In this document: in pieces, positions 58,124 through 64,000 of the stretch | Numbering within the stretch: the first letter of the stretch is position 1 | How the letters are laid out: every line of letters begins with the position of its first letter | Assembly (NCBI RefSeq): GCF_018881755.1 | Contig: NZ_JACVPS010000003.1 | Location: forward strand, 62,001-126,000 | DNA length: 64,000 bases | Reading direction: 5' to 3' | Origin: Polynucleobacter finlandensis | Lineage (GTDB): Bacteria; Pseudomonadota; Gammaproteobacteria; Burkholderiales; Burkholderiaceae | Made by a program: the position numbers and the translations under genes | The notes under the pieces: generated by a model | What the model saw: the letters and a program-made list of their open reading frames with translations, nothing else | The model's database searches: none | What the model was told of the DNA's origin: nothing

Positions 58124-58199
58124 GCGGGAATAGCTCAGCTGGTAGAGCGATACCTTGCCAAGGTATAGGTCGGGAGTTCGAACCTCCTTTCCCGCTCCA
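58124..58199 (+). tRNA. tRNA-Gly (anticodon GCC)
   Basis: A full 76-nt cloverleaf with encoded CCA. The acceptor stem GCGGGAA pairs with TTCCCGC, the D arm is AGCTCAGCTGGTAGAGC, the anticodon stem ATACC/GGTAT encloses TTGCCAA (anticodon GCC), and the T arm contains GTTCGAA. The discriminator is T. Confidence 0.97.
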
Positions 58200-58248: not shown

Positions 58249-58322
58249 GGCGCGTTGGCCGAGTGGTTAGGCAGGAGCCTGCAAAGCTTCGTACGGGGGT
58301 TCGATTCCCTCACGCGCCTCCA
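58249..58322 (+). tRNA. tRNA-Cys (anticodon GCA)
   Basis: A 74-nt cloverleaf with encoded CCA. The acceptor GGCGCGT pairs with ACGCGCC, the anticodon stem GGAGC/GCTTC (one wobble) encloses CTGCAAA (anticodon GCA), and the T arm contains GTTCGAT. The discriminator U73 is the usual cysteine identity base. Confidence 0.96.
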
Positions 58323-58957: not shown

Positions 58958-59677
58958 TTACAAGCCGCCAGCCCTGATAAGACCTACAGCCTGACCTTCG
59001 ACTGCGAAGTTGGCTTGCCTGCCATCAACGAGGATGTTCTTGAAGTCAGGATTTTCAGCTTGCAATTCGATCACTAAGCCATTAGGGGTTTTTGTTTGAT
59101 TCCAGCGCTTTACTGTGACTTCATCATCTAAGCGAGCAACAACGATGTCGCCATTGCGCACTTCAGTCGTTTTTTTCACAGCCAAATAATCACCATCCAA
59201 AATGCCCGCATCGCGCATACTCATACCGACTACTTTTAATAGGTAATCTGCACCCTTGCTAAATAAGCTCGGATCAATTGGAACTTGTTTTTCAATATGC
59301 TCAACTGCCATGATGGGTGAGCCAGCAGCAACTCTACCAATGAGTGGAAGGGTGAGTTGTTGTAGTGCGCCAGAAGGCAAAGACATCTGACGATATTTAT
59401 TTTGGTTGTGTGATTGATTGAATCTCTGTGGAATCCGAATGCCACGCGAGGTTCCTGGTGTGAGTTCGATATATCCCTTTTTGGCAAGTGCGCGAAGATG
59501 CTCTTCTGCAGCGTTGGCAGATGCAAATCCAAGTTTGGTAGCGATTTCTGCGCGAGTAGGGGGTAGGCCACTATCGCCAATGGCGTTGGTAATTAAATCC
59601 AAGATCTCACTTTGACGGGCGGTGAGTTTCGGGAGGGCAGCCAGCTCCTCAATAAAATCGACTGTATTTATGTCCAT
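58958..59677 (-). CDS. lexA: SOS repressor LexA
   Basis: This 239-residue LexA has an N-terminal winged helix ([12 protein letters not shown] ... [13 protein letters not shown]) and a C-terminal S24 protease domain. Self-cleavage would occur at Ala118-Gly119 (VAAGS), using Ser153 (GMSMRDAG) and Lys168 (YLAVKK). It represses DNA-damage genes until RecA filaments trigger cleavage. It carries about 15 extra residues before the usual start. An operator-like site overlaps its start region, suggesting autoregulation. Confidence 0.95.
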
Positions 59678-60939: not shown

Positions 60940-61314
60940 ATGCGTCATTATGAAATCGTCTTTATCGTCCATCCGGACCAAAGCGAGCAAGTGCCAGCGA
61001 TGATCGATCGTTACAAAGCTACATTAGCAGCTGCGGGCGGCAAAGTTCATCGTATTGAAGATTGGGGTCGTCGTCAGATGGCTTACATGATCGACAAGCT
61101 TGCTAAAGCCCACTACGTTTGCATGAACATTGAGTGCGACCAGAAAACTCTGGAAGAGCTCGAGCATGCGTTCAAATTTAACGATGCTGTTTTGCGTCAC
61201 CTCATCATCAAGACAAAGAAAGCTGAATCAGAGCCTTCCATCATGATGAAAGAAGTGCAACGTGAAGAAGCGCGCAAATCAGCTCAAGTTGACGCTCCTG
61301 TAGCGGCAGCCTAA
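60940..61314 (+). CDS. rpsF: 30S ribosomal protein S6
   Basis: This 124-residue S6 starts [22 protein letters not shown] and has the [17 protein letters not shown] segment. The acidic/Ala-rich tail is typical of betaproteobacterial S6. AAGGAG lies upstream of the ATG. It leads the rpsF-priB-rpsR-rplI-dnaB cluster and forms a heterodimer with S18, encoded two genes on. Confidence 0.97.
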
Positions 61315-61373
61315 GTTAGAAATTTGAAGAGGAATACAGAGAATAGAAAACGTATCAGAGTGACGGAGCGGCG

Positions 61374-61667
61374 TTGAATCATTTCACCCTAACTGCATTC
61401 TTGGTATCTAAAGACGCGATTCGATTTACACCTGCAGGAATACCGGTGATGCATTGCCAGCTAGAACATAGCGGTGACGTAAACGAGGTAGGAGTGGCAA
61501 GGAAAATCCAGATGAGTGTTGAAGCCATAGCAATTGGCCCGATTCAAAAGGGCTTAGAGCAAATGGATTTAGGAACCGAGGCAGTGTTTGAAGGATTCTT
61601 GGCAGCAAAGACTCTACGTAATCAAAGACTTGTTTTCCATATCACCCATATTCAATTGAAAAATTAA
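61374..61667 (+). CDS. priB: primosomal replication protein N
   Basis: This 97-residue single OB-fold protein starts at TTG 61374, with GGAG 6-9 bases upstream. The sequence [32 protein letters not shown] matches PriB. It binds single-stranded DNA and helps PriA restart stalled forks, finally loading DnaB, encoded in the same cluster. Confidence 0.92.
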
Positions 61668-61680
61668 AGAGGAAATCATC

Positions 61681-61953
61681 ATGGCGTTTGGAAAGAAACC
61701 CGATTTCAAAAAGAAACCAGCTCAGAACCCATTGTTCAAGCGTAAGCGTTATTGCCGTTTCACTGTTGCTGGCGTAGAACAGATTGATTACAAAGATGTC
61801 GATACATTGAAGGATTTTGTTGGCGAAAACGCCAAGATCACTCCTGCTCGTTTGACAGGCACAAAAGCTAAGTATCAGCGTCAGTTAGACACCGCTATCA
61901 AGCGTGCTCGTTTCCTGGCTCTGTTGCCGTTCTCTGACCAACACAAGAAATAA
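61681..61953 (+). CDS. rpsR: 30S ribosomal protein S18
   Basis: This 90-residue protein has the S18 signature [21 protein letters not shown] and [31 protein letters not shown]. It pairs with S6 on the 30S platform. AGAGGA lies upstream of the ATG, and rplI follows after 13 bases. Confidence 0.97.
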
Positions 61954-61966
61954 TTGGGAGCCCTCA

Positions 61967-62419
61967 ATGCAAATCATTCTTTTAGAAAAAGTAACAAATT
62001 TGGGCAACCTCGGCGACGTAGTACGCGTTAAAGACGGTTTCGCTCGTAACTTCTTAATCCCGCAACGCAAAGCGCGTCGTGCAACTGAAGCGGCTATTGC
62101 AGACTTCGCAACTCGTCGTGCTGAGTTGGAAAAGTTGGCTGCTGAGAAATTAGCTGCTGCTGAAGCTGTTGGTGCGAAGTTGAAGGACCTGGTTCTCGAA
62201 ATCGGTCAAAAAGCGGGTGTTGACGGTCGTTTGTTTGGTTCTGTAACCAACCATGACATCGCTGATGCTTTGAAAGCAAAAGGCTTTGTGATTGAAAAAG
62301 CTTCTGTGCGCCTGCCTACTGGCCCATTAAAAATGGTTGGTGACCACCCTGTAGCGGTTGCTGTTCATACCGATGTAGTGGTGGATATCACTATTCGTGT
62401 AGTTGGCGAGCAAGCTTAA
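61967..62419 (+). CDS. rplI: 50S ribosomal protein L9
   Basis: This 150-residue L9 (ATG 61967, GGGAG just upstream) starts [31 protein letters not shown] long connecting helix follows, then the C-terminal domain with [17 protein letters not shown]. The open frame extends 21 codons further upstream over rpsR, which I reject as the start. Confidence 0.97.
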
Positions 62420-62443
62420 GTTTTAAAACTGTAAACTAGCCTC

Positions 62444-64000
62444 ATGGCTGAATCCCGTTCACGTTCCGTTACGCTGAATCCCGGCATGATGGGTTCTGGG
62501 GATGCAGTCGTGCAGGCTTTAAAAGTTCCACCGCATTCTGTAGAAGCCGAGCAATCTCTGCTCGGCGGTCTACTGATCGATAACGCTGCCTGGGATCGCC
62601 TGGGTGGAGTGTTAACTGACAAAGATTTCTATCGTCCTGAACATGCATTGATCTATAAGGTCATTCAGCGTTTAGTTGGCGACAATCATCCTGCTGACGT
62701 CATTACTGTTCATGAGGCTGTTAAGTCCGAACAGGGTGGTGATTTGGTTGGCATTGATTACCTCAATTCCTTAGCGCAAAGTACGCCAAGTGCGGCGAAC
62801 ATCAAAGGCTATGCCGACATTGTTCGTGATCGCAGCATTTTGCGTCGCTTGATTGAAGTTTCAGACAATATTGTGAACTCTGCATTCGTGCCAGAAGGTC
62901 GTTCAGTCAGAACGCTTTTGGATGAAGCTGAATCACGCATTTTGCAAATTGGTGAAGAGGGTAGCCGCAAAGCTGACTACCTTGAGATTGAACCGCTGCT
63001 GAGAACGGTTGTTGCTCGTATCGATGAGCTCTATAACCGTCAAGGTGGCAGCGACATCACTGGTATTGCCACTGGTTTTATTGATTTGGATAAGCAGACT
63101 AGCGGATTGCAAAAAGGCGACTTAGTCATTGTTGCTGGAAGACCCTCGATGGGCAAAGCGCAGCCGCTTGATGCAAAGATTAAAACCAATGATGGCTGGA
63201 AATTAATGGGCGATTTGCAGATAGGCGATCGCTTGGCATCGGTAGACGATCAGCACTCCATTGTTACTGGCATTTATCCTCAAGGCCTAAAGCAAATCTA
63301 CAAGGTTACTTTTTCAGATGGTCGGCAAGCGGAGTGTTGTGACGAGCATTTATGGCGCGTAATGTATCGCGATTGGTCAGAGCCGAGAGTGATCAATACT
63401 GTGCGTTTAATCGAAATGCTTTCTTGTGTCCGCTACAAAAATCGCCTGTGGATAGATCCTGTCTCGGGTGATTTTGGCCATTCAAATGAATTGCCAATCA
63501 ACCCTTGGGTACTGGGCGCTCTTTTGGGAGATGGCACTTTAGCCTTATCTCACGGTAGTGTTTCATTTTCGACTAACTCTTCTGAGTCGTTGGAACGGAT
63601 GAATGCGCTGGCTGGATACGAGATGGAATTGGTTCATGCTGGCGCCTATGACTGGAGGCTTGTTTCAAAAGCCAGAATTGCTGTTAATGGTCGAAAATCT
63701 GCAGTAACAACCAATTACTTCAGGGCTGCATTAGATGACTTAGGCGTATTGGGTTGCAGGAGTTTTGATAAATTTATTCCCGCACAATACTTAGAATCAG
63801 ATAAAGCCTCTCGCTTAGCCTTATTTCAGGGTTTAATGGATACGGATGGATGGATTGAAAAATGGGGCTCGATTCGCTTCTGTTCCGTGAGCCAGCAATT
63901 AGCAGAAGATGTTGCTTCTTTAGCAAGATCCTTGGGCGGTTTTTGCTCAATCGCCACTAAAAATACTTCATATACCTACAAAGGTGAACGCAAGCAAGGT
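62444..64000 (+). CDS. dnaB: replicative DNA helicase with in-frame intein (partial)
   Basis: ATG 62444 opens a frame that runs off the window. Residues 1-238 are DnaB: a short leader, the N-terminal helical domain (HSVEAEQSLLGGLLID ... DFYRPEHALIY), a linker and the start of the RecA-like ATPase with TGFIDLDKQTSGLQKGDLVIVAGRPSMGK. At the Lys of the Walker A P-loop (63155-63157) the frame continues without a stop into an intein, where Thr is expected. The host helicase needs protein splicing to restore GKT. The rest of DnaB lies outside the window. DnaB unwinds DNA at replication forks. Confidence 0.95.
   Translation, partial: MAESRSRSVTLNPGMMGSGDAVVQALKVPPHSVEAEQSLLGGLLIDNAAWDRLGGVLTDKDFYRPEHALIYKVIQRLVGDNHPADVITVHEAVKSEQGGDLVGIDYLNSLAQSTPSAANIKGYADIVRDRSILRRLIEVSDNIVNSAFVPEGRSVRTLLDEAESRILQIGEEGSRKADYLEIEPLLRTVVARIDELYNRQGGSDITGIATGFIDLDKQTSGLQKGDLVIVAGRPSMGKAQPLDAKIKTNDGWKLMGDLQIGDRLASVDDQHSIVTGIYPQGLKQIYKVTFSDGRQAECCDEHLWRVMYRDWSEPRVINTVRLIEMLSCVRYKNRLWIDPVSGDFGHSNELPINPWVLGALLGDGTLALSHGSVSFSTNSSESLERMNALAGYEMELVHAGAYDWRLVSKARIAVNGRKSAVTTNYFRAALDDLGVLGCRSFDKFIPAQYLESDKASRLALFQGLMDTDGWIEKWGSIRFCSVSQQLAEDVASLARSLGGFCSIATKNTSYTYKGERKQG
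63158..64000 (+). mobile_element. class 3-like intein with LAGLIDADG endonuclease in the DnaB P-loop (partial)
   Basis: The visible 281 residues begin AQPLDAKIKTNDGWKLMGDL, an intein block A with Ala1 instead of Cys or Ser. Block B reads ECCDEHLW, with the catalytic His64 and a Trp66 two residues later (63353-63355), the position of Trp in WCT class 3 inteins. LAGLIDADG motifs are LGALLGDG (Asp125) and LFQGLMDTDGW (Asp230), so a homing endonuclease is fused. Insertion after GK matches the known DnaB-b site. Blocks F and G, needed to prove the class, lie beyond 64000. Confidence 0.9.

Follow-up and report, generated by a model that had tools for sequence, protein, structure and literature searches.

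Inteins in the P-loop of the replicative helicase DnaB are already known: class 3, an uncommon class, is represented at this site (DnaB-b) by DnaBi1 of Mycobacterium smegmatis (Msm) (PMC6195587, PMC5222942), and insertion between the Lys and the Thr of a P-loop has been called classic (PMC5050341). PMC5222942 describes class 3 inteins as having no nucleophile at residue 1, a Trp at position 12 of block B (B:12), a Cys at position 4 of block F (F:4) and a Thr at position 5 of block G (G:5), and as further marked by a His at B:10, a terminal His-Asn and a Ser or Thr residue at +1. The DnaB class 3 inteins of M. smegmatis, M. leprae and M. chimaera (PDB 6bs8, 6own, 6rix, 6riy) share their host protein with the intein described here. 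The first two, as far as they are described in PMC6195587, PMC5222942 and PMC7664689, also have the P-loop site b, Ala1, the WCT triplet, the His-Asn end and a hydroxyl residue at +1, as here. However, they are mini-inteins without an endonuclease and have Ser at +1, whereas the present intein has 352 residues, an apparently intact LAGLIDADG domain and Thr at +1.

Class 3 inteins of mycobacteriophages (Bethlehem DnaB, Catera Gp206 and the terminase inteins) belong to the same WCT class but lie in phage genes, while ours lies in a chromosomal dnaB and is less than 60% identical to all of its phage matches. Among these is the DnaB of Xanthomonas phage LucasX (MW825358), annotated as intein-containing, which has Ala1, CCAEHLW in block B, Cys F:4 and a THN end as here. 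The LucasX intein is 38.8% identical over the full length and also sits between GK and Thr, although in a phage DnaB with a different sequence around the site. The yeast VMA intein PI-SceI, a class 1 intein, is similar along the whole length, with both a splicing domain and a LAGLIDADG endonuclease fold (Z 27.9), but interrupts a host protein other than DnaB. What is new at the present locus is an endonuclease-bearing Polynucleobacter lineage with an invariant Cys at B:7; no new mechanism is involved. No report of the Polynucleobacter intein was found in the literature searched; it may be listed in InBase or in Tori and Perler 2011, which, judging by its citations, reportedly treats class 3 inteins as a set.

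The window (the whole stretch of DNA analysed, 64,000 nucleotides) ends within the intein. Sequence beyond it was taken from the same assembly (2.28 Mb, 41 contigs, 99%-complete), on a 228 kb contig (G000:C3, locus L004) of which the window makes up positions 62001-126000 and where the first 2,000 bases of the locus are identical to window positions 62001-64000. The features are as follows.

62444..64000, continuing to contig-equivalent 64939, + strand: first part of the dnaB precursor gene (open frame; Pfam DnaB N and DnaB_C; TIGR00665)
62444..63157, + strand: N-extein of DnaB, its last residues GRPSMGK being Walker A through the invariant Lys (translation)
63158..64000, + strand: predicted intein, residues 1-281 of 352, the remainder at contig-equivalent 64001-64213 (translation, relatives)
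63335..63340, + strand: Cys60-Cys61, block B positions 6 and 7, in CCDEHLW (alignment of relatives, phage records)
63347..63349, + strand: His64, block B position 10 (translation, alignment of relatives)
63353..63355, + strand: Trp66, block B position 12, the class 3 marker (translation, alignment of relatives)
63491..64000, running past the window, + strand: predicted homing endonuclease domain of the LAGLIDADG family, spanning roughly residues 112-305 (Pfam, PI-SceI match)
63512..63541, + strand: first LAGLIDADG motif, LGALLGDGTL, with Asp125 (alignment of relatives)
63821..63850, + strand: second LAGLIDADG motif, LFQGLMDTDG, with Asp230 (alignment of relatives)

Translation of the window and its own contig gives a single open frame of 831 codons for the whole dnaB precursor. 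The intein takes up precursor residues 239-590 (window 63158 to contig-equivalent 64213), with 281 of its 352 codons inside the window and the codons for Cys332 and Thr350-Asn352 beyond its end. The junctions read GRPSMGK/AQPLDA...VVTHN/TAFALN (slashes marking the intein ends), which places the insertion between the invariant Lys and the Thr of Walker A, the DnaB-b site; the joined exteins make a DnaB of 479 residues. TIGR00665 (replicative DNA helicase, NCBIfam) matches the frame above its cut-off, and Pfam finds DnaB N and a DnaB_C match that is split in two around the insert. The preliminary description had an in-frame intein interrupting DnaB after GRPSMGK, which is borne out by a frame that is open throughout and resumes DnaB with TAFALN, and its start at 63158 is exact, being the first base of the Ala codon; the stop soon after base 64000 that would have spoken against it is absent. 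Pfam Hint matches the splicing part weakly (E 0.053, below the cut-off), and since the splicing-domain models of Pfam are barely matched, identification of this part rests on motifs and fold.

A pseudogene or assembly artefact is ruled out by the open frame on a 228 kb contig and by the same insert in 70 genomes. Nor is the insert a chance feature: 70 of the 186 genomes sampled from the genus contain it, with 351-352 residues and 77-100% identity, and the codon boundary is the same in the 68 genes read. The dnaB start (62444) lies directly 3' of a run that reads by eye as rpsF-priB-rpsR-rplI (60940-62419). Further away, two neighbouring tRNA genes (58124-58196 and 58249-58319) lie upstream of a gene on the opposite strand that looks LexA-like by eye (58958-59677).

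The intein carries Ala1, His64-Leu-Trp66, Cys332 in AQCISV, Thr350-His351-Asn352 in VVTHN, and Thr+1. Residue 1 is thus none of Cys, Ser or Thr, Trp66 at B:12 stands two residues past His64, and Cys332 is at F:4. Ala1, His64, Trp66, Cys332, Thr350, His351 and Asn352 are invariant in all 67 aligned 352-residue relatives from the genus, and Thr+1 in all 68 occupied genes read. A further relative, L220, has the same marks and, with 351 aa, was omitted from the 67-row column counts. The preliminary description had proposed a class 3 (WCT) intein in the DnaB Walker A motif from the Ala at its start and the His-x-Trp of block B; both are confirmed, and what it expected past the window end (a Cys at F:4, a Thr in block G, a His-Asn end and Thr resuming DnaB) was found as Cys332, Thr350, His351-Asn352 and TAFALN, so that its class assignment is now supported by all the defining sequence marks. 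The intein also resembles 6bs8 and class 3 inteins of phages.

We further compared an AlphaFold model of a relative (L036, 89% identical; 7 extein residues per side, 80-row alignment; mean pLDDT 90.6, pTM 0.90) with known structures using Foldseek and VIA-align. Over its full length the model matches PI-SceI (1jva_B: VIA-align Z 27.9, 327 aligned, 3.4 Å), while its splicing part matches the Msm class 3 DnaB intein (6bs8_C: Z 18.1, 123 aligned, 1.7 Å, 29% identity) and a class 3 mini-intein (6riy_A: Z 17.8). Taken as a whole, the predicted fold of this relative is PI-SceI-like, and its splicing part resembles that of the M. smegmatis class 3 DnaB intein. A sequence search of the PDB found gp41-1 variants as best match for the N-terminal part (2.3e-08; 6bs8 at 3.6e-04) and PI-SceI for the middle part (7.4e-04).

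Within the intein, Pfam LAGLIDADG_3 is matched above its cut-off (E 7.4e-07), and both dodecapeptide motifs are present with their acids. Asp125 and Asp230, which we take to be the catalytic acids by analogy with PI-SceI, are kept in 67/67 and 66/67 relatives, the exception for the latter being L016. Among 26 disjoint close pairs, the median dN/dS is 0.054 for the endonuclease part, 0.039 for the splicing part and 0.011 for the extein; the low values for the two intein parts point to purifying selection on both, and the endonuclease appears to be intact. With high confidence, we regard the insert as a predicted class 3 intein of full length (bifunctional), which occupies the DnaB-b site of the chromosomal replicative helicase in a Polynucleobacter-type bacterium.

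To see how widespread the intein is, we searched 186 genomes of the genus, 76 of which matched. The full insert is present in 70 (77-100% identity), a divergent P-loop class 3 intein in four (G020, G041, G147, G161), and the match in G051 lies in a gene other than dnaB. A fragment in G149 (residues 302-352) was considered as a decayed copy and rejected, as it runs to the end of its contig (8566), an assembly edge. Among the 172 genomes with a dnaB match, 75 have a class 3 intein in the P-loop, the P-loop is uninterrupted in 95, and two are unclear (G119 and G158, with weak dnaB matches only); of the 95, 66 are in the tree described below, three more were read, and 26 were judged by an uninterrupted match alone. 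We read 68 occupied and 66 empty genes in all, 68 of the 70 full inserts being used, as G055 and G118 (frames of 595 and 691 aa, taken as contig edges) were left out. In all 66 empty genes read, the site is an exact, scar-free GK/T (GK/S in one).

The four genomes with the divergent intein (loci L258, L259, L260 and L262 in G020, G147, G161 and G041, respectively) carry two inteins in one DnaB, resembling the two-intein DnaB of M. smegmatis. Their P-loop class 3 intein has 335-343 aa and has lost the LAGLIDADG acids, and a second insert of 140-144 aa towards the C-terminal end (LRE/C...HN/SGAIEQ) has Cys1 and Ser+1, a class 1 pattern. Three other loci (L295-L297) have the second insert only (142 aa). 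In G051, whose dnaB is empty, the non-dnaB gene (L222, contig G051:C6) holds a class 3-like intein with the junctions IGK/ALPEYELV...VTHN/S.

In a family sample searched at E 1e-8, 48 of 398 genomes matched, from 6 of 25 genera including Polynucleobacter; 20 of these lie beyond the genus, among them a fragment (G295) and a match in another gene (G471). Among the matches listed (80 of 92), named contigs include Limnobacter at 71% and, near 50%, Burkholderia, Trinickia, Paraburkholderia, Dyella, Roseateles and others. Neither phages (matches in 515 of 50,697 records, all below 60% identity, the best among the matches listed 38.8%) nor plasmids (37 matching records, all below 60%) nor IMG/VR (38 loci, best full-length match 39%, one fragment 40%) yielded a close donor. 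In bacteria and phages, relatives of the intein also lie directly after the GK of a wide variety of P-loop NTPases (L105-L152, L287-L294). Among full-length matches, partly chosen by peptide pattern and including some near-duplicates, GK precedes the insert in 32/35 viral and 9/9 non-DnaB bacterial rows, and Thr follows in 44/44.

We investigated whether the patchiness reflects movement of the intein with a quick maximum-likelihood tree of 134 dnaB exteins (68 occupied, 66 empty), which is not a species tree. Intein presence requires 37 changes on this tree, and starred branches force at least 20 of these. When the labels are shuffled, 45.1 changes are required on average and as few as 37 in 7 of 500 shuffles, so there is some clustering of presence on the tree, but it is slight. 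In AU tests of 67 genes (fast searches, 120 bases on each side of the site removed from the extein), the intein data rejected the extein tree (p 5.5e-05), and the extein data likewise rejected the intein tree (p 5.6e-125). Particular pairs point the same way: L185 and L200 have a pS of 0.09 in the intein and 0.44 in the extein, and along L021 and L200 an identity of 94-98% in the intein contrasts with values as low as 73% in the upstream extein. Because the extein tree is not a species tree and the trees come from quick searches, recombination of dnaB itself could account for part of both the conflict and the patchiness.

The flanks of the site carry a further signal. In disjoint nearest pairs (third-position identity; one empty gene fewer than the 66 in the tree, for length), 45 occupied-empty pairs have an identity of 0.735 at a distance from the site, falling to 0.635 over the 90 bases that precede the site and to 0.511 over the 90 that follow, this last stretch being lower than far in 43 of 45. 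Identity also drops in 26 empty-empty pairs (0.744 far, 0.688 before, 0.644 after) and in 30 occupied-occupied pairs (0.762, 0.727, 0.667), by 0.10 each, and hence only the excess counts for co-conversion. The downstream drop in occupied-empty pairs exceeds that in empty-empty (p 0.0003) and occupied-occupied pairs (p 8e-06). The dnaB of the window itself, compared with its empty sister in the tree (L154), goes from 0.81 far to 0.43 over the 90 bases that follow the site. This footprint is what co-conversion during homing would leave. The endonuclease would cut intein-free dnaB alleles encountered through gene transfer, and repair would copy the intein, together with some flanking DNA, into the cut allele.

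Most of these inteins did not arrive recently. Across the full set of 2,211 pairs, median pS is higher in the intein (0.70) than in the extein (0.59). In 7 of 26 disjoint close pairs the intein pS is at least that of the extein. Together, these values suggest an old intein pool with repeated transfer. The intein may also meet resistance: at the third codon past it (contig-equivalent 64220-64222), Met (TAMALN) occurs in 14/66 empty and 0/68 occupied genes (Fisher p 2.3e-05, a test that ignores relatedness). On the tree, this residue changes 8 times, and of 8 independent pairs a mean of 5.5 run against the intein, none with it and 2.5 tie (median p 0.06). Met at +3 may thus be a homing-resistant allele.

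Alternatively, the intein might splice with a dead endonuclease, its patchiness arising from ordinary dnaB recombination and repeated precise loss. L016 without Asp230 would suit this, as would the separate L258, L259, L260 and L262 group, which has kept its frame without the motif acids. We nevertheless think it improbable, given both acids in 66/67 relatives, an endonuclease-part dN/dS of 0.054, inteins of 351-352 aa in the 68 occupied genes, none of them shortened or broken in frame, the surplus divergence adjoining the site in occupied-empty pairs, and an intein identity well above extein identity in pairs among L021, L185, L193 and L200. We therefore keep to the reading of a class 3 intein with an apparently working endonuclease, which seems to behave as a mobile element.

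Until splicing, the Walker A loop is broken between Lys and Thr. The 99%-complete assembly yielded no second DnaB gene, and so splicing should be needed for replication; for the same reason, the suggestion in the preliminary description that splicing may gate replication is plausible. A third, weak DnaB_C match (L003) was considered as a DnaB and reads by eye as RadA. Going further, one might see the intein as a regulatory switch, retained because slow or redox- or metal-sensitive splicing controls replication. Its place in the P-loop of an essential gene would favour such a role, as would the five Cys positions (60, 61, 242, 263 and 332) invariant in 67/67 relatives and the inhibition of Msm DnaBi1 by H2O2 and zinc, as reported in PMC6195587 and PMC7360933. 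However, the residue corresponding to Cys48, the redox partner in Msm, is here Ile47 in a phmmer alignment, and none of the 119 rows of a separate alignment has Cys in that column (Ile in all 33 that are of the same kind as the present intein; Ile, Val or Ala in the remaining 86). Furthermore, 95 of the 172 dnaB-matched genomes in the genus do without the intein; its frequent absence from sister species argues against its being needed, and frequent gain and loss are more in keeping with a selfish element than with a regulator that the cell needs. A switch thus seems an improbable reason for its retention.

From the class 3 assignment we infer the branched-intermediate route. Splicing would be autocatalytic from Cys332, whose attack on the Lys-Ala1 bond would form the branched intermediate at block F; transfer of the acyl group to Thr+1 would follow, Asn352 would cyclise, and the P-loop halves would be ligated to GRPSMGKT. 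A class 2-like reaction, in which Thr+1 attacks the N-terminal junction directly and Cys332 is incidental, is compatible with Ala1 and Thr+1 but highly improbable, and is rejected on sequence with every WCT residue present: Trp66, Cys332 and Thr350 are invariant in 67/67 relatives, a change of Cys F:4 to Ala is reported to abolish splicing in three class 3 inteins and Thr+1 is within the class 3 range of Ser or Thr (both PMC5222942), and the combination that the preliminary description took as telling against class 3 (block F without Cys, and Cys or Ser at +1) is not seen, Cys332 and Thr+1 being present.

Within this class 3 intein, block B stands out as ECCDEHLW, with B:7 being Cys61, three residues ahead of His64. 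Thr is usual at B:7 in class 1 inteins. Msm DnaBi1 has Asp62 there (PMC6195587), and according to PMC7891396 no residue at B:7 is conserved in class 3 inteins, those characterised having Gly or Asp. The position lies beside the N-terminal scissile bond in the solved class 3 inteins described in PMC6195587 and PMC7891396, and Ser65 at B:7 of the AceL NrdHF intein is reported to be able to lie 2.9 Å from the scissile amide nitrogen (PMC7891396). Our intein thus differs from that of Msm in having Cys rather than Asp at B:7 and no counterpart of Cys48.

Cys60 and Cys61 are invariant in 67/67 relatives, and the divergent L258 group retains the pair as CCAEHLW. ECCDEHLW was itself a pattern in some searches, making invariance there partly built in, and the claim for Cys at B:7 rests on the genus search, the four L258-type rows, the family search and eight phage records found by tblastn. 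In those eight, B:7 is Cys (3), Asp (2), Ser (2) or Asn (1), and two more class 3-like family inteins have Ser (L299) and Asp (L300); Cys at B:7 therefore marks a subfamily and not the class. Perhaps the pair forms a functional variant of the class 3 active site, the Cys61 thiol engaging in a disulfide or metal site with Cys332 or sharing in the attack, as a switch distinct from the Msm Cys48-Cys118 trap; we offer this tentatively and think it rather unlikely. In two viral contigs, SNF2-like helicases (by eye) contain inteins with CCDEHLW, Cys F:4 and a THN end but with Cys1 (L143:718-1746 and L146). They combine the body of a class 3 intein with the nucleophile of class 1, which could be either ancestral or regained.

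The characterised inteins of M. smegmatis and M. leprae at this DnaB site are endonuclease-free, whereas Polynucleobacter has the same arrangement with an apparently working endonuclease. Rather fewer than half of the species sampled in the genus have the intein, the others read lack it without a scar, and the footprints of its transfer are still readable. With such frequent gain and loss among related species, this looks like a good natural system for following how an intein spreads, and one in which resistant alleles, the extent of converted flanks and the timing of endonuclease decay would all be testable.
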